Shown piece by piece: positions 11,990-51,495 of a stretch of DNA of 64,000 nucleotides (the first letter of the stretch is position 1; every line of letters begins with the position of its first letter). Both the position numbers and the translations under genes were made by a program. The notes below the pieces were generated by a model. That model saw only the letters and a list, made by a program, of their open reading frames with translations, had not been told where the DNA came from and ran no database searches. This stretch comes from Owenia fusiformis (lineage: Eukaryota > Annelida > Polychaeta > Sabellida > Oweniidae). The stretch is from contig CAIIXF020000002.1 of the NCBI GenBank assembly GCA_903813345.2, positions 4,750,001 to 4,814,000 on the forward strand. Direction: 5' to 3'.

Positions 11990-13520
11990 CAGTACAAACT
12001 GTCAAGTGAAACACCTCTATAAGTGGAACATCTAGTATATAAGTGGAACACCTCCTTGAGTGGAACACCTGGAGAAGTGTTACACCTGTATAAGTAGAAC
12101 ACCTCTATAAGTGGAACACCTCCATAAGTGAAACACCTGTATAAGTGGAACATCTCTATAAGTGGAACACCTCCTTGAGTGAAACACCTGTATAAATGGA
12201 ACACCTCTATAAGTGGAACACCTCTATAGTGGAACACCTTTATAAGTGGAGCACCTCCTTAAGTGAAACACGTGGAGAAGTGGAACACCTGTATAAGTAG
12301 AACACCTCTATAAGTGGAACACCTCCTTAAGTGAAACACCTGTATAAGTAGAACACCTCTATAAGTGGAACACCACTATAAGTGGAACACCTCCTTAAGT
12401 GAAACACCTGTATAAATGGAACACCTGTATAAGTGGAACACCTCCTTAAGTGAAACACATGGAGAAGTAGAACACCTCTATAAGTGGAACACCACTATAA
12501 GTGGAACATCTCCTAAAGTGAAACACCTTTATAATTGGAACACCTCTATAGTGGAACACCTATATAAGTGGAATGCATCCTTTAGTGAAACACATGCATA
12601 AATGGAACACCTGTATAAGTGCAACACCTTTATAAGTGGTACACCACTATAAGTGGAACACCTCTATAGTGGAACACCTATATAAGTGGAACACCTTTAT
12701 AAGTGGAACACCTATATAAGTGGAATGCATCCTTTAGTGAAACACATGCATAAATGGAACACCTGTATAAGTGCAACACCTTTATAAGTGGTACACCACT
12801 ATAAGTGGAACACCTCTATAGTGGAACACCTATATAAGTGCAACACCTTTATAAGTGGTACACCACTATAAGTGGAACACCTCTATAGTGGAACACCACT
12901 ATAAGTGGAACACCTCTATAGTGGAACACCTATATAAGTGGAACACCTTTATACTGGAACACCTATAAAAGTGGAACACCTCTATAGTGGAACACCTATA
13001 TAAGTGGAACACCTCTATAAATGGAACACCCGTATAAATGGAACACCTATATAAGTGGAACACCTATATAAGTGGAACACCTCTATAGTGGAACACCTAT
13101 ATAGTGGAACACCTATATAAGTGGAACACCTCTATAGTGGAACACCTATATAAGTGGAACACCTCTATAGTGGAACACCTATATAAGTGGAACACCTCTA
13201 TAGTGGAGCACCTATATAAGTGGAACACCTCTATAGTGGAACACCTTTATAAGTGGAACACCTCTATAGTGGAGCACCTATATAAGTGGAACACCTCTAT
13301 AGTGGAACACCTTTATAAGTGGAACACCTCTATACTGGAACACCTATATAAGTTGAACACCTCTATAGTGGAACACCTATATAAGTGGAACACCTCTATA
13401 AGTGGAACACATCCTTAAGTGAAACACATGCATAAATGGAACACCTGTATAAGTGGAACAACTCTATAAGTGGAACACCTGTATAAGTGGAACACCTGCT
13501 TAAGTAGAATACCTTTATGA
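11990..13520. repeat. 1.5-kb minisatellite, monomer GTGGAACACCTCTATAA
   Basis: This is a continuous array of 15-17-bp monomers, GTGGAACACCTCTATAA and variants (TATATAA, CCTTAA, TTTATAA). At 13085-13400 two monomer types alternate as a 33-bp higher-order unit, which yields an 11-residue repeating open frame (13104-13418). The monomer equals the subterminal repeat of the pogo/Tigger-like copy at 9613. A degraded end-like motif, CAGTACAAACTGTC, sits at the left edge. No gene is present. Confidence 0.95.
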
Positions 13521-14512
13521 GTGGACCACCTCTAATGTACAGTATAATAAGGGGTGCTATCAACATTTGGACCTATACATTTTTTTTTTATTAAGATAAA
13601 TTTATTTCATTATTTTCATTACATTAATTAACATTTATCTGCTTTCAGCAATCTCAACTGAAACAGAAAGGGGTATTTTTATGACATGATTGTAACAAAA
13701 TCCAGCATTTATGTTCAGATACCTCTTGTTGGATATCAAACAAGAGAATTAGCTTCCATTTCAAGGCATCAAACAAAGGTTTGGGTATGAAACAATAAAA
13801 TCAATGAATAAAATATCGGTCAAGTGACTATTGTTATCTAAACAATATATAAATTATAGGTGATTTAAAAAAATTAAAATAACTTTAATTGAGGTCGCAT
13901 TTCCTGAGAAGTCAATGTTCTCTAGCCTGAGAAATTGCATCTTGGCAAGTTTTCTATTGTTTGGACACTATAATGAACTTTGTTAAATTTTTTAATTTAA
14001 AGTGCCAGTATACAAGTAATGTTCCAACAGTAATGATCACCAAGATTCCTCAGGATATTTGGCTATTAACCTCAGTCTCCTAAACTTTAGTATATGTGAA
14101 TTTTTGTATCTATAACATATATGAAATAAATGATTATAAAAAATTAAAATTTTAGATCCGCTAATTATTATTCATCTGTTAGTCTATTTATATATACAAT
14201 ATGCATGTATGAATTATTAGTGATGTTAAAAAATTAAAAGGACTTTAATTCAGATCACATCTTCTCAGAGGTTGATAGCCAAATATCCTGAGAAATTTTG
14301 GTGATCTTTCTTTTGTTTGGACACTTGAACTTTTTGGGATTACTTTTTGGGATTAATTTGTCACAGCATATTTTTGGTATAATCATAACTTAATAAAAAG
14401 TGGGGTCGGAATATACTTATTTATACTTTTTTCTGTTCTATATAATCCCGAAATAATTTTTTCTAACCAGTAATGCCTTTCAGTGTACAAATTTTTTTTT
14501 TTTCAATTCAAT
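13521..14512. repeat. AT-rich sequence with a diverged duplication and hairpin
   Basis: Segments at about 13862-13980 and 14222-14340 are diverged direct copies (shared AAAAAATTAAAA, CTTTAATT, TTGTTTGGACACT). A segment at about 14035-14085 is inverted relative to 14270-14320 (AATATCCTGAG/CTCAGGATATT). This suggests a small decayed inverted-repeat element. No gene seen. Confidence 0.5.
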
Positions 14513-44471: not shown

Positions 44472-44555
44472 TCACTGTTTAGCTAGGGCAACTAACGTGA
44501 AGTTCACCTCATCTGGGTCTCGTTCCATGAATCCTTTCACAACTGTGCAAGTGTC
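44472..44555 (-). CDS. UCHL3: UCHL3 coding exon 8 (C-terminus and stop)
   Basis: The acceptor is TTATTTTAG. It encodes 27 residues including [15 protein letters not shown], ending ALAKQ and TGA at 44474-44472. It starts in phase 0 after exon 7. I did not find an unambiguous AATAAA downstream on the minus strand; the next 700 bases are transposon-derived. Confidence 0.95.
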   Translation of the reverse strand, partial: DTCTVVKGFMERDPDEVNFTLVALAKQ

Positions 44556-47500
44556 CTAAAATAACAGATAAAAGTTTGTTAGCTTTATATTACACAAAAA
44601 CTACACCCTCCTGGGGGTTTCACTCAAATATACCTCTTAATACCTATGTGCCACGCCAAAGACGCCCTTTTAAAGCATTTTTCCATGTCAATTTCCACTC
44701 AAGATTTAAAGTATCCATGTATATTTCCTCTCAGACTTATAAAAGGGAGTAAATTTCCTGAAATATTGGTATACTAACTACAGAATCTTTTTGGGTGATT
44801 TGTCCAAGACCTCGCCAACCGATTTTAACTATGTATTACCATTTTTTGTAGAGAAACTGAATTTTCACTTAAAAAAGGCTCTCTCCACGACAAATTTTCC
44901 ATGTTTTTTTCCTCTCAGATCAACCAGGTTCCATGGTTTATACCCTAAGCCAAAATTGCCCATGCTGCACATACCTACCCAAATTATTTAGAGTGAACCC
45001 CCAGGTACCCCCTTTGAAAGGTTTGATTTTAATCTCATAATTGAAAACCCCAGAGTGATGAAATTTTTCATAAAAATAATGGATTCACTCTTTTGAGAAC
45101 TATGGTGACAATGTAATGCCACACAATTATTCACTAAAATTGCTCAGGCTTTGCCATTTTAATCCAGTCTACACAAATTATTCATTATTAAATATGTAGA
45201 AAGAGCTGATGCTCACATAATATTCATCAAATTTAACATCACATTGTACATGTCAAAAACTGGCAAAAAGTCATAGAGTTGAAAGAAAGCAATCAGAGCC
45301 TTGTTACCATTTGTAGCCTTCCGGATTTCAGGGTACACAACTGAAACATGCATGTCAAGTATAACCTGTCAGTCTATACTTCATAATCATGAGTACCTTG
45401 TAGGTAGGGTAGATACTTTACTAGTGGCTATAGTAAGTGACATGAGTAGAATGTCATTGTGTTCAAATTTCTTTGAAATATCATTACATAAAAATGGTAG
45501 CATGGGCTTTCAACATCTCTGATGGTACTGATGTAACGTAAGTGGGACAATTAAATCCCAACAGAAACCGTTTCCCATCTGCTGTTGTTGCATCAATTTC
45601 CAAAAAATTCAAAACAAATGACTGAAAACGGTGACTGAAAACCGAAATCATTTTGGCAATCACACCCCCCTTGACTGAAAGCTGGCTCTGCCCCTGACAT
45701 GTAATGATGTATAGTGTTAAATTCCTCAGTTACTATGACTCCAAGGTCAGGGTATACGCGCCAGGTCTTATTAACCATAGTCACAAAACGAAACTAAATG
45801 CAAATGTAAAACAAGGCATTAACATTCAAAATGTCAAAAACATGCCATTTTTTACAGACACCGACCACCAAATGACAAACACCAACCACCATCCACAAAT
45901 AAGTTGAAGACTATAATGTCACTACTCCTGGTGGTGACATAATAATGAAACTAGATGCAAATGTAAAACAAGGCATTAACATTCAAAATGTCAAAAACAT
46001 GCCATTTTTTACAGACACCGACCACCAAATGACAAACGCCAACCACCATCCACAAATAAGTTGAAGACTATCATGTCACTACTCCTGGTGGTGACATAAT
46101 AATGAAACTAGATGCAAATGTAAAACAAGGCATTAACATTCAAAATGTCAAAAACATGCCATTTTTTACAGACATCGACCACCAAATGACAAACGCCAAC
46201 CACCATCCACAAATAAGTTGAAGAATATCATGTCACTACTCCTGGTGGTGACATAATAATGAAACTAGATGCAAATGTAAAACAAGGCATTAACATTCAA
46301 AATGTCAAAAACATGCCATTTTTTACAGACATCGACCACCAAATGACAAACGCCAACCACCATCCACAAATAAGTTGAAGACTATCATGTCACTACTCCT
46401 GGTGGTGACATAATAATGAAACTAGATGCAAATGTAAAATAAGGCATTAAAATTCAAAATGTCAAAAACATGCCATTTTTTACAGACATCGACCAGCAAA
46501 TGACAAACACCAACCATCCACAAATAAGTTGAAGACTACCATGTCACTACTCCTGGTGGTGACATAATAATGAAACTAGATGTAAATGTAAAATTGACAA
46601 AATCCAAACTCCCAAATAAAGTGGTTTTGTTCTCAAATAACCTAAAGTAATGCTCCCAATACATGAATAAGACCAGATACTAACAACCAGATCCTTCTTA
46701 GTAAAACGTTCCATGATAACTGACACAAATTCAAGAGAGGAGGGGGGAGGTCTTCCCAATTTGTAATAGCTCCCTACTTTCTGTTTTTAATTGAAATTTT
46801 GATACACTCTCCTAGCATTACCATGTAGTGGTATTATATACATTTGACCCCTACCTCCAACAGGCTGTCTTTTGTGGTGGGTCCATGGTTAACAGGGGCC
46901 GATTTTCTACCATCTGAAAAACATTCAAACACATTAATAAATCAACAAGATTTCAACCTGACACATGTAAAATATGCAAACAAGGTTACAACTGGTTGTA
47001 TATCCATCATTTATATGTATGTTTTTTGCAACACCTATGGAGCCACAAAATGCATAATAAAACCTGTATATAGTGAACATACATGGAGCCACAAAAGTGT
47101 TCAGTGAAGGTAGGTGTTCACTACACAGAGGAAATTTTAAAGTGTTGTTCACTAAACACAGGAGACACAAGAGAGAGGTGGTCACTGAGACAGGTTTTAC
47201 TGTATTCATTTTAGGTAAGTGTTCACTACAGAGAGGTGATCTTGTACACAAGTCAGTAGAGTTTGTGCTGGGAAGAACTAAGACAGGTTCTACAGTACTC
47301 TAAAACAGATAGCATGTATGAGGTTAAAACAACCAAACATAATGTATCAAAAAATAAGAATTTGACAATTTGTTAAGAAAATATGAACTAACTTAGATAG
47401 AGGGCAGCACTAGACAATGAACAAAATTAAAAGGGTTTTAACTGACATCTATAAGAGATGTACACACATACAGGTTAGTGTCATTATAAAACAGTAAAAC

Positions 47501-50500
47501 CTGTCTCAGTGAACACCTCTCTCTAGTGAAAATCTGTCCCTAGTAGACACCCAGGCCCCTGAGGGTGGAGGGGGGGAGTTCTATGGGTTCGAGCGAACCC
47601 CCCCCCCCTGGCCAAAAAATCTTTCAAAATCATGCAGTTTTTCATCATTCTGAGCACTTTTTAAGTGATTTTGGCCATTTTTGGACCAAAATTATCACAA
47701 GTGAACCCCCCTGGAATTTTTCAAAAAGTGAACCCCCCATTGGCAAATCCTGGCTACAGGCCTGACATCCTTCCTTCCCACATACTCAATGGACTTCTGT
47801 ATAAATTACCCTCTCTGTAGTGAACACCTACCAGCACTGAACTTTTTTCTCAATAAATTTTTACTAACTTTCTTTAAAATTATGATGAAGCTATTGTAAA
47901 TGCATGGTTAACAATTATGGATCTAATCCCTTGATTATAATTTGCTTAGATCAATGAAATGATGTAGGGCAAATTTATGCTATTTATTGCCCTAGGAGGT
48001 TCACTGTATACAAACCTTGACGGGGATCCTCAGTGCACATGGGGTACCTTTTTTGACATTTGGTATGGCAATGGCCCCATACTTTAGGATCTGGTATGAG
48101 AATTCCCCAGAAATCATGAAATTTGAGATATGGTAATGGTCGGATTTTCAACTTTCTGCTATGAGAAAAATATGTGACGTCACACTTGTGGTATGGCATT
48201 GGTCTTGTAATTACACATATCTTTAATTTGAGGTTGTTTTGAATCATTTTTCTCAAAGATCAACGTTCTTCTCAGGTCTTCTTCAGTTTGAATATTAGTT
48301 TTTTTCCCATTTGGTATATTGGTCTTATATATGAACATTTGGTATGGCATTGGTCCTATATTTGGACATTTGGTATGGCATTGGTCTTATATCTGAACAT
48401 TTGGTTTGGCATTGGTCTTATATCTGAACATTTCGTTTGGCACTGGTCCTATATTTGCACATTTGGTATGGCTTTGGGCATTATTTTGGTTGGTATGGGA
48501 ACACATTGAAATTAGTCAGATTGGTAAAGGAAAATATTGATATCTGAGGGTTCAGCCTAGTACCCCTGCCAAACTTTGTATACAGTGAACATATCATGCA
48601 AGAGCATAGACAGGGTTTGAAGATATATTTATGCAATTCATGTATTTTGGTGTGTCAATTGCCTCACCTGCATCAAGACTGGCTGTGTTCATGTTAATAC
48701 TATTTTTGAAAATTAACCTATTTCACTTACCCATCTCATACAGAGTGCCATCACTGTGAATAAATGTAACAAAATGTAGTTTCACTTTTTCATCAATAGA
48801 TGGTGCTGCTGTCTGGCCTTCCTTAGCAGATTCCTCATGCGCCGATCCAATGCACTGAAAACAGAATGATTTAAACAGCCATAATCTTAAATGATTTGGA
48901 AATGAAATTCATCTATATCTAAAATCTATATATGTGTAGAGTATAGTATATTGTGCCATGTTCAAAATGTGCCATCATCACAATGTGCCATGACCACAAT
49001 GTGCCATGGTCATAATGTGCCATCGTCACAATGTGCCATGGCCACAAAGTGCCATGTTCAAAATGTGCCACTATCACAATGTGCCATGGCCACAATGTGC
49101 CATCATCACAATGTGCCATGGCCACAATGTGCCATGGTCAAAATGTGCCTTGGTCATTATGTAGAATTATTTTTGAAGATGAAGTATGTCATGCATGTTT
49201 TGGCTCCGACTATCTTACAAAAAAACCTTGATTATGTATCAGAAAACCAGCTATAGAACTACCAAAAGTGTATTACAAGTTACATATTACATACTGCGGT
49301 GTAGTCTAAACAAACACTGAAACCCGAACGGCTATTCAAGTGAGGAAGCTACATGTATTTGTATATAGGCAATTTATACGACTATGTTGCCATTTTGATT
49401 TAAATACTTTAGTCTAACTTAAATGAACAAAAATTGCTTTAAACGGGAATCCTATCGACACAGGTGCGACTATTGTTGAAATATGGACAGACAGACTATT
49501 GTTTGCAATAGTTCACCATGTGACCTAAAAATCTGTGCATACCTCATCTTCTTCCAAAAGTTTGGCACGCTCTTCAGGTGTCAGGGAAGAACTCTTGCTT
49601 AAAAGTTCTTTAAGGTGGGCTCCATCTGAAATGATGTTAGAATGAATTTTCCCCCAGTACTAGTATTTAAATTAATAAGTACAATAAACAGAATCTAATA
49701 ATGTCAATTATTTGGGATTACAGACATATTCATGAATAATAAAAAATACATATAAGGAATAATATTTAATTGGAATGTAATTGTAAAAGACAAAAAGATG
49801 ATGATGATCAAAAAAGTGAATGAAAATGATGATGAAGTCATAATTTTTATTGCTTGAAGTCGAACTATATCTATGTTTTTCACAAAAGCTGCATTTCAAA
49901 ATGCAAATGCCTCATATTTATACATTTAAATTTAACACTTCATCCCCTAGGACGTACCTGGCAAGGTAATACTGTCTGTATTGTTGAGGAATGCATGTAT
50001 AAGACCTATAGTTCCACAGGCATTTCCAATAGTTTGTTTAATGAAGTATAGGGACGTGCCAGGGTCTTGCTTCTCATTGGGGTCCCCCTCTGACTGAAAA
50101 TGAGGAATGCATGTATAAGACCTATAGTTCCACAGGCATTTCCAATAGTCTGTTTAATGAAGTATAGCAACGTGCCAGGGTCTTGCTTCTCATTGGGGTC
50201 CCCCTCTGACTGAAAATGAGGAATGCATGTATAAGACCTATAGTTCCACAGGCATTTCCAATAGTCTGTTTAATGAAGTATAGCAACGTGCCAGGGTCTT
50301 GCTTATCATTGGGGTCCCCCTCAGACTGAAAATAAAACAAAATATAAGGGTAAGAGAGCGACGGAGGGGATGGAAAGATATTCTACTGAGAATTTGAAAT
50401 AGTTGAGGTAAGCCATTGTGACATCCTAATCAATGACAAATTGTCAGAAAAATGTATCATACATCCAAGAATCAATCCGTGTATAAATTGTCAACAAAAT

Positions 50501-51495
50501 CAATGTTCTACTTTTTTCAAAAATAGCAAAAAAGATAGCAGCAGCTTCATAAAACTGAAAGAAATATGCAGCATAAAATATATAGGGATGGGCAGTACAA
50601 TGTAGATCTCCTATATCAATTTTGTGAAGCTATGGTTGCCGTACGCCCACCATAGTACAGCAAATGTGACTGAGGCTTAACTTACATTTTCTTTTATGGG
50701 GTATAGAAAGAGAACTGCAGCGACTGGTCTGGGAACCATGGCGAGTAGGTCTGAATCCATTCCAAAAACATCACAGAAGCTCCAATCATCAGGAGCACCA
50801 AGATTACGGACATACTAAAAATATTTTGATTAAATCATTACAATGGTGTTATACAGGGAACCAGGGAAATGATTCTATCATTTACAAAGGTTGTCTTCGT
50901 AGTTGCATGATAACATTTAATATCATAAGGTTGAACTTTTACTTGATTCTGATAATAGATAATGTTTTACAAATGTGACACTTTGGTGATCTCTAAAGTA
51001 CAATCTAGAACAGATTATAAATATCACACCCAATGTTTTCATTTTTTCATATACTGTTGCAATAAAGTCATTTGATTGCTTATTTTTTAAATTCAACATT
51101 TAAAATTTTACTGTAATAGATTGTATTTACAATCCTCAGTCAGACAACAAAGACAATTTTCTTTGTTTACAACTTGCAACTCAATCAGTAATTTCAATAA
51201 AGGACTGGCATAATTAAATCACGAGACGTTAGCAGCATTGAATAAATTGTGTCGTCTGCATAAATTTTCATAAAGCCAGTCATTGTTTCCAAACCCATAT
51301 TTGAAATATGCCAGCACTTTGCACCAACCTTGTTCATCACCTGAAAATAGAAAAACAACAATATTCAGTCCAGTTGATCTCACATATTTCATGCATACTT
51401 GACTTGAATTCTGAAAGATTTTATCCAGTAGAACTTCAGAAAACTGAACTTACATCGGGATTGGATTCCAAAGGTAACCATCGTTGCGCTGCCAT
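44472..51495 (-). CDS. UCHL3: Ubiquitin carboxyl-terminal hydrolase, UCHL3-type (complete, 8 coding exons)
   Basis: This cysteine protease of peptidase family C12 cleaves small adducts and peptides from the C-terminus of ubiquitin (and of NEDD8 in characterised UCHL3) and acts in the cytosol and nucleus. Eight exons joined by GT-AG introns (51495-51454, 51340-51329, 50814-50686, 50093-49958, 49625-49543, 48854-48731, 46913-46855, 44555-44472) encode 222 residues, against 230 in human UCHL3. All exon phases agree. Visible landmarks are N-terminal [11 protein letters not shown]; active-site [16 protein letters not shown] with Gln81 and Cys87; [12 protein letters not shown] after the crossover loop; His161 in KLHF; Asp176 in DGRK; and C-terminal FMERDPDE. 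All four catalytic positions are retained. Paralogue UCHL1 is less likely because of the RWLPLE start and the length. Introns are repeat-rich, and exon 4 is preceded by two decoy copies. Confidence 0.97.
44610..45005. mobile_element. 396-bp MITE in UCHL3 intron 7
   Basis: The left end CCTGGGGGTTTCACTC and the right end GAGTGAACCCCCAGG are inverted (one-base length difference). The interior has repeated TTCCATGT and CCTCTCAGA motifs. Non-coding. Confidence 0.75.
45790..46571 (+). repeat. Five-copy tandem array (157-bp unit) in UCHL3 intron 7
   Basis: Unit starts fall at 45790, 45947, 46104, 46261 and 46418, with a fragment of a sixth at 46572. Spacing is exactly 157, 157, 157 and 157, then 154. 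The unit is a whole copy of the dispersed GGCATTAACAT repeat, ending CTACTCCTGGTGGTGACATA. Copies differ by only a few substitutions, which indicates recent tandem amplification. Confidence 0.95.
46855..46913 (-). CDS. UCHL3: UCHL3 coding exon 7 (catalytic Asp)
   Basis: The exon encodes [11 protein letters not shown]...SLLE; the aspartate (residue 176, its codon split across the exon 6/7 junction) aligns with the general-acid-orienting Asp of the family. Acceptor TTTTTCAG, donor GTAGGG. Human UCHL3 has KPFP where this protein has KSAP. Confidence 0.95.
47055..47202. mobile_element. Short Tigger-like MITE in UCHL3 intron 6
   Basis: Left AATAAAACCTGTATATAGTG faces right GACAGGTTTTACTG, which is followed by TA. 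Subterminal GTGTTCA/GTTCACTA motifs lie between. The left CAG has decayed. Confidence 0.65.
47492..47830. mobile_element. Tigger-like element fragment carrying a nested MITE
   Basis: CAGTAAAACCTGTCTCAGTG with GAACACCTCTCTCTAGTG on the left and CTCTCTGTAGTGAACACCT to the right belong to the Tigger-like family. A 213-bp CAGGCC-end MITE sits between them. The family's right terminus was not located. Confidence 0.6.
47552..47764. mobile_element. CAGGCC-end MITE, second copy
   Basis: Right end CCTGGCTACAGGCCTG (47749-47764). The interior is almost the same as 677-878 (TTCAAAATCATGCAGTTTTT, TTTTTGGACCAAAATT). The left end is partly scrambled by a G-run. The high similarity points to recent activity of the family. 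Confidence 0.85.
47999..48590. mobile_element. 592-bp element with perfect 16-bp TIR GTTCACTGTATACAAA
   Basis: GTTCACTGTATACAAA at 47999-48014 is exactly inverted at 48575-48590. The interior includes five to six copies of a roughly 29-bp unit with GGCATTGGTCTTATATCTGA (about 48305-48470). A related copy is at 43539-44098. Non-coding. Both copies lie within 5 kb, one inside UCHL3 intron 6. Confidence 0.85.
48731..48854 (-). CDS. UCHL3: UCHL3 coding exon 6 (catalytic His)
   Basis: The exon encodes the end of the active-site crossover loop ([21 protein letters not shown]) and [10 protein letters not shown], whose first His is residue 161, the catalytic histidine. Acceptor GTTTTCAG, donor GTAAGT, leaving one base to be joined to exon 7. 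Confidence 0.96.
48950..49165. repeat. Minisatellite, unit AATGTGCCATGGTCAC, in UCHL3 intron 5
   Basis: About thirteen copies of a 16-bp unit occur in variants (CATGGCCAC, CATCATCAC, CATGTTCAA). Open frames on both strands here are by-products of the repeat. Confidence 0.95.
49543..49625 (-). CDS. UCHL3: UCHL3 coding exon 5
   Basis: The exon encodes [18 protein letters not shown] and RAKLLEEDE, matching the helix preceding the crossover loop. Acceptor ATTTCAG, donor GTATGC. The first codon is shared with exon 4 (phase 1). Confidence 0.96.
49958..50093 (-). CDS. UCHL3: UCHL3 coding exon 4 (catalytic Cys), functional copy
   Basis: The exon encodes [17 protein letters not shown], then [18 protein letters not shown] and [10 protein letters not shown], ending with donor GTACGT. 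Cys87 lies in GNACG and Gln81 six residues before it. Only this copy of the three tandem copies has the [10 protein letters not shown] segment and a donor, and only its acceptor (CTCATTTTCAG) gives the correct frame into exon 5. Confidence 0.96.
50105..50209 (-). pseudogene. Partial duplicate of UCHL3 exon 4 (copy B)
   Basis: It repeats the first 105 bases of exon 4 at a 116-bp offset with about three differences (Ser75 codon becomes Leu; one synonymous change), including its own CTCATTTTCAG-linked acceptor. It runs straight into the acceptor of the functional copy and has no donor. If used, translation shifts frame and stops. Confidence 0.9.
50221..50325 (-). pseudogene. Partial duplicate of UCHL3 exon 4 (copy C, first in the transcript)
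   Basis: Offset 116 bp from copy B, it shares B's Leu variant and adds Glu68 to Asp. Its acceptor, TTATTTTCAG, is the original-looking intron end. Reading on from it gives an intact SEGDPND...GLIHAF, then out-of-frame sequence with a stop after MPVEL at 50122. That product would have Cys87 but no His or Asp. Confidence 0.9.
50686..50814 (-). CDS. UCHL3: UCHL3 coding exon 3
   Basis: The exon encodes [18 protein letters not shown], then [18 protein letters not shown] and LYPIKEN: 43 codons, phase 0 at both ends, with donor GTAAGT. It covers the strand-rich N-terminal half around the ubiquitin-contacting MVPRP segment. Confidence 0.97.
51329..51340 (-). CDS. UCHL3: UCHL3 coding exon 2, 12-nt microexon (VMNK)
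   Basis: The acceptor CTATTTTCAG precedes GTGATGAACAAG, then a weak donor GTTGGT. The four codons fill exactly the gap between exon 1 (NPD) and exon 3 (YVRNLG), where vertebrate UCH proteins have four residues of the pattern [VM]-x-N-[QK]. Without it the protein would lack those four residues but stay in frame. Confidence 0.85.
51454..51495 (-). CDS. UCHL3: UCHL3 coding exon 1
   Basis: The exon runs from ATG (51495-51493) through [14 protein letters not shown] to donor GTAAGT. The start sits in AAAATGG, a good Kozak context, and the first residues align with the start of vertebrate UCHL3, which fixes the initiation codon. Confidence 0.96.

Follow-up and report, generated by a model that had tools for sequence, protein, structure and literature searches.

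A tandemly tripled intron-exon border in the UCHL3 gene of Owenia fusiformis, with predicted decoy 3' splice sites

What becomes of a gene when the border between an intron and the exon encoding its active-site cysteine is present three times in a row, each time with a splice acceptor and only once with a donor? The question is raised by a 64,000-nt stretch of DNA from the annelid Owenia fusiformis (contig CAIIXF020000002.1:4750001-4814000, assembly GCA_903813345.2; hereafter the window, in whose own positions all coordinates are given). A sequence-only reading of the window had proposed that the supernumerary acceptors tune the level of the enzyme UCHL3 or else give rise to a fragment bearing the cysteine alone. 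Here we re-examine the locus against the whole assembly (498 Mb in 525 contigs). The likeliest explanation is a tandem-duplication mutation of an ordinary kind, in a genome prone to such duplications and a UCHL3 gene that looks otherwise intact.

The array spans positions 49985-50332 of the minus strand, at the border of intron 3 and exon 4. Repeat comparison resolves it into three head-to-tail direct copies spaced by exactly 116 and 116 bp, and TRF describes it as 116 x 3.0 with 97% matches, 0 indels and a score of 663. The three 116-bp units first noticed on this strand are thus borne out; their locus was right, the array extending slightly beyond the 49989-50325 originally assigned to it. 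Copy C (50217-50332) comes first in the transcript and adjoins the unduplicated part of intron 3, copy B (50101-50216) is in the middle and copy A (49985-50100) is last, with B 97% and C 96% identical to A. Every copy opens with the final seven bases of intron 3, TTTTCAG, and goes on with the first 109 of the 136 bases of exon 4; the earlier description of each unit as an acceptor plus exon sequence holds, except that it counted 105 exon bases. The remaining 27 bases and the donor follow copy A only. A three-copy array is real, far beyond chance.

That the copies differ at few sites had also been seen, and they do so at five positions of the unit, C being singled out by 10 and 28 and A by 48, 49 and 67, which makes two differences over 116 positions between C and B, three between B and A and five between C and A. 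Copy C has TCT, GAT (Asp) and TTG (Leu), and copy A has GAG (Glu), TCC (Ser) and CAA; TTG is common to B and C, the shared Leu variant of the original reading, against TCC in A. Copy B agrees with A at its 5' sites and with C at its 3' sites. A split this perfect has a probability of 0.2 by chance with five sites, and it is only suggestive of B being a hybrid from unequal exchange between two diverged copies. Four of the five differences fall in the third base of a codon, which is equally no more than suggestive (uncorrected chance 0.045); such a bias would fit an origin of the differences in coding alleles. The array junction, read from the copy alignment, shows about 1 bp of shared sequence, which would fit an end-joining duplication.

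By sequence similarity the gene is UCHL3, in agreement with the initial identification, and lies nearer to UCH-L3 than to L1, L5 or BAP1. Our model has eight exons running from 51495 to 44472 on the minus strand and yields 222 amino acids via acceptor A; with this acceptor its introns, all GT-AG, measure 113, 514, 592, 332, 688, 1817 and 2299 nt. Exon 1 (51454-51495) holds the start codon and is followed by exon 2 (51329-51340), a 12-nt microexon encoding VMNK that is required for collinearity with human UCH-L3. After exon 3 (50686-50814) comes exon 4, which for the full-length product covers 49958-50093 (136 nt), encodes Gln81 and Cys87 and ends at the donor CAG|GTACGT at 49957. Exon 5 (49543-49625), exon 6 with His161 (48731-48854), exon 7 (46855-46913), which completes the Asp176 codon with its final two bases, the exon 6/7 junction falling within that codon, and exon 8 (44472-44555), which ends at the stop codon, complete the model. 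The seven exons other than exon 4 are open, and we saw no lesion in the gene model other than the array.

The 222-aa product matches the whole of Pfam PF01088 (Peptidase_C12; E 4.7e-66, profile 1-211 of 211). Residues 1-220 align, near end-to-end, with human UCH-L3 (PDB 1uch), and among relatives of solved structure the bit scores are 266 for UCH-L3, 199 for L1, 61 for L5 and 36 for BAP1. Gln81, Cys87, His161 and Asp176, which we take to be the catalytic residues, all align with the human enzyme within this collinear product. Unlike its human counterpart, the annelid gene has two extra partial copies of the Gln/Cys exon upstream. Ten matches to the C12 profile were found in the genome, on three contigs (C2 five, C5 three, C6 two); the five on C2 all fall in the UCHL3 gene, three of them being the exon 4 copies. 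TRF detected no array at two of the eight cut loci with C12 matches (L006 and L003, contigs 5 and 6).

Whether the extra copies matter to splicing depends on the signals that they carry, which we scored with a Shapiro-Senapathy-type matrix not trained on this genome. In the gene model the exon would begin at 50325 after acceptor C, at 50209 after B and at 50093 after A, precisely the positions named at the outset. With this matrix acceptor C scores 6.0, the 99.6th percentile of the 6274 AGs in the window, and B and A score 4.2 each (97.7th percentile of the same set). The six other acceptors of UCHL3 range from -2.0 to 9.7, an interval that includes A, B and C; since the lowest of them is the real acceptor of exon 3 (-2.0), the matrix discriminates weakly. 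Each of the three acceptors has a candidate branch point (yUnAy) 20-26 nt upstream with no AG between, their other yUnAy motifs being 8 nt away or past other AGs. Upstream of acceptors B and A, the yUnAy motif and most of the pyrimidine tract derive from the exon (CTTAT, CATTCCTCA), and because the exon sequence supplies both elements, an exon-derived copy would make a good acceptor. The two upstream acceptors, C and B, are therefore predicted to be usable. Donors present a different picture. Between acceptor C and the exon 4 donor, which is included in the count, 13 GTs were listed; that donor, at 49957, is the sole one with a good score (5.5), none of the remaining 12 exceeding -3.9 on a scale where UCHL3's own donors score 1.8 to 5.5. 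No good donor is thus predicted within the array, and the claim that only the last copy carries the exon's 3' end and donor stands. Mutually exclusive exons were considered and rejected, as the copies do not have a donor each.

Joining exon 3 to acceptor A in silico gives the full-length 222-aa UCHL3. Joining exon 3 to C or B instead throws everything downstream of the copy out of frame, and translation ends prematurely after 128 residues, 41 past Cys87, much as the sequence-only reading had anticipated. For route C the stop precedes the end of exon 4 by 164 nt and the last exon junction by 430 nt; for route B the distances are 48 and 314 nt. Under the standard distance rule, a stop far upstream of the last junction makes a transcript a candidate for nonsense-mediated decay (NMD), and on these positions the C and B transcripts would be NMD substrates: judged by where the stop falls, use of the alternative sites would create the NMD-type stop that characterizes AS-NMD. 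Their potential to act as poison sites, proposed at the start, is consistent both with these stops and with the competent scores. Copy A has Ser at a site where human UCH-L3 has Ser and B and C have Leu, and its protein version scores slightly higher against Pfam (223 bits against 220.7 for that of copy C, a small margin of 2.3), both of which would be expected were A the coding copy.

How often each acceptor is chosen is a separate matter. In human genes, according to a study of competing 3' splice sites, the upstream site is preferred when two compete, and this preference is significantly weaker under exon definition (PMC9225289). UCHL3 resembles the human cases described there in having one donor facing several acceptors of similar strength, and departs from them in that its acceptors are near-identical duplication copies 116 nt apart, the alternatives to A being non-productive. 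Productive UCHL3 splicing might be rare if the human preference applied here, C being also the highest-scoring acceptor. With A looking like the coding copy on one side, and C being the strongest site and the upstream preference on the other, we expect acceptor use to be a mixture in which a share of the transcripts is wasted.

A look at the wider genome indicates how unusual such an array is. In a sample of twelve 10-kb stretches (120 kb), with TRF rows merged and a period of at least 60 as the threshold, we counted 19 arrays. Ten stretches held at least one and two held none, six of the 19 arrays lying in a single stretch (L012); in six of the 19, the first TRF row showed at least 94% matches. 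The 64-kb window has five arrays of period at least 60, two of which reach 94%, the UCHL3 exon 4 array and another at 45790. Tandem arrays are thus frequent in the sampled stretches of this genome.

We consider it probable, with confidence somewhat above even, that the array arose as a tandem-duplication mutation and left passive decoy acceptors in a gene that still makes UCHL3 from acceptor A at the price of some wasted transcripts. A 116-bp segment, made up of the extreme 3' end of intron 3 and the initial 109 bases of exon 4, would have been duplicated in tandem, and two copies would then have become three, perhaps via unequal exchange between diverged copies. Each new copy would bring a competent 3' splice site, by virtue of the exon's own branch-point-like CTTAT and pyrimidine tract, and no donor. 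Whenever exon 3 is joined to acceptor A, functional UCHL3 should result, with C and B reduced to plain intron; splicing to C or B should give a frameshifted, NMD-prone mRNA. On such a course C and B would be passive decoys only, and this haplotype would probably yield less UCHL3 for their presence, with no need to invoke evolved regulation. Counting against this account, both upstream AGs are still in place, where a harmful decoy of long standing might have been expected to lose its own.

Several other explanations have to be weighed against that of passive decoys. If C were used nearly always, little UCHL3 would be made, and the array would mark a loss-of-function or strongly hypomorphic haplotype, possibly polymorphic. 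C is indeed the strongest of the three acceptors by the splice matrix, and human data generally favour upstream 3' splice sites (PMC9225289). Yet an old null lesion would be expected to have been followed by others, and the seven other exons are intact with no visible decay, which leads us to regard this outcome as unlikely. More doubtful still is the idea that C and B are evolved poison acceptors, retained because they commit a fixed fraction of transcripts to NMD and thereby tune UCHL3, copy number perhaps serving as the dial. The two sites are intact and score as competent with the splice matrix, their stops are placed as NMD would have it, and the third-position bias (four of five differences; uncorrected chance 0.045) would agree with it, but is also expected of coding alleles that diverged before the duplication. 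A regulatory function has no positive support in the one genome at hand, arrays of this kind abound in the stretches sampled, and passive mutation fits equally well; the tuning role attributed to the acceptors at the outset is unsupported. One could also envision a minisatellite straddling the intron-exon border as a splicing rheostat, in which each 116-bp unit adds a non-productive acceptor, UCHL3 falls stepwise, and unequal exchange generates 1-, 2- and 3-copy alleles, so that the dose of enzyme varies across the population. This scheme has a low probability, which we put level with that of evolved poison sites. The proposal of a purposely made Cys fragment of 128 residues without His or Asp, for instance as a ubiquitin-binding decoy, draws on the open frame of equal length that starts from both C and B; a stable product of this kind is nevertheless unlikely, and one made on purpose most improbable, because the stops are of the NMD type (430 and 314 nt ahead of the final junction) and the C-route product matches only positions 1-103 of the 211 of the Peptidase_C12 profile before ending in a frameshifted tail. 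Finally, the array might be an assembly artefact, a single real copy having been misassembled from divergent haplotypes or repeats: the copies resemble one another at the 96-98% level that alleles might show, and it is the assembled sequence that was examined. Against this speak the exact 116-bp spacing, the clean junction with its shared base or so, and a middle copy that matches neither neighbour throughout. A 551-bp query of the assembly, in which gapped stretches could hide another copy, returned a single match, the window itself, so no second contig with the locus was found, and the window contains no N. We hold an artefact to be very unlikely.

A further alternative is intron gain through AG|GT tandem duplication, in which whole repeat units are spliced out and the exon is restored. 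AGGT occurs once in every unit (GT at 50237, 50121 and 50005), and the routes would run from TAG|GTCTTA in C to the same motif in A, removing 232 nt, or from B to A, removing 116 nt, after acceptor B. To look for such rescue, we let exon 4 start from acceptor C or B and then allowed a single additional array-internal intron, with 40 nt as the minimum length. The scan returned 36 in-frame, stop-free options, of which only two give exactly 222 aa; these are the two routes between AGGT motifs, in line with the Rogers model, with a summed score of -6.3. The candidates as a class are poor and were rejected, the best summed score being -0.6 and the best donor -3.9. By the splice matrix the AGGT motif itself rates -5.2 as a donor, the 41.6th percentile among the 6796 GTs of the window, where the donors of UCHL3 range from 1.8 to 5.5; as an acceptor it rates -1.0 (75.7th percentile). 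No donor adequate for intron gain is predicted in the array with that matrix, and we consider this route highly improbable.

The closest precedent by analogy is the potato RdRp gene. Its tandem duplication of an intron-exon border handed the copy a branch site, a pyrimidine tract and a 3' splice site; a cryptic GTAAG donor completed a new intron, whose splicing 106 RNA-Seq reads confirmed (PMC4974935). Both loci duplicate the 3' end of an intron together with the 5' part of the next exon, both inherit the acceptor, and in both the copies differ at some sites (ten in potato). Potato has two copies and UCHL3 three, and potato formed an intron with its cryptic donor, whereas UCHL3 shows no good predicted donor and use of its extra acceptors would shift the frame. 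The UCHL3 array would thus represent the potato case minus the donor, with acceptor competition as the consequence rather than intron gain. The AG|GT mode of gain associated with Rogers and Hellsten is illustrated by ATP2A1 and by fission yeast 24-bp arrays (PMC4974935), and intron-gain cases from Drosophila and fission yeast are described as using AG|GY or AG|GT motifs (PMC2891723, PMC4974935). UCHL3 shares with this mode the exon-derived tandem units, the AGGT in each, and the possibility that inter-unit splicing could restore the ancestral mRNA; it differs in that its AGGT scores poorly as both donor and acceptor, and extension of intron 3 to A is better supported. Among the matches listed, judged by titles and abstract openings and with subscription journals mostly outside, we recognised no earlier report of the UCHL3 array. 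Three of the papers listed bring together UCHL3, molluscs and splicing, among them an oyster heat-tolerance association study that names UCHL3 nine times (PMC10778899), and one that combines UCHL3 with nonsense-mediated decay and alternative splicing deals with human oocytes (PMC10778858).

Nothing new is implied for the UCHL3 enzyme itself. The value of the locus is that of a natural duplicated-3'-splice-site experiment, setting three near-identical acceptors against one donor, in which the diagnostic differences between copies let cDNA reads tell which acceptor was used. It could show the fate of border duplications, whether they pass harmlessly into the intron, behave as hypomorphic mutations or can turn into regulators.

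Other repeats were seen in the gene, in the rest of the window and on other contigs. The second well-matched array of the window, at 45790-46593 in intron 7 of UCHL3, is a 157-bp unit repeated 5.1 times with 97% matches; its matches in the twelve sampled stretches were short, reaching at most 37 and 53 bp in two of them. Intron 5 contains a 16/48-bp minisatellite (48952-49156) lying within a 116-codon plus-strand stop-to-stop frame, and a 17-bp minisatellite of about 91 copies occupies 12004-13534. A 162-bp tandem family occurs on contigs 3, 5 and 6 (L014 7009-8008, L017 1948-2401 and L019 5974-6772), where best local identities of about 95-100% between arrays mark it as a dispersed satellite-like element.
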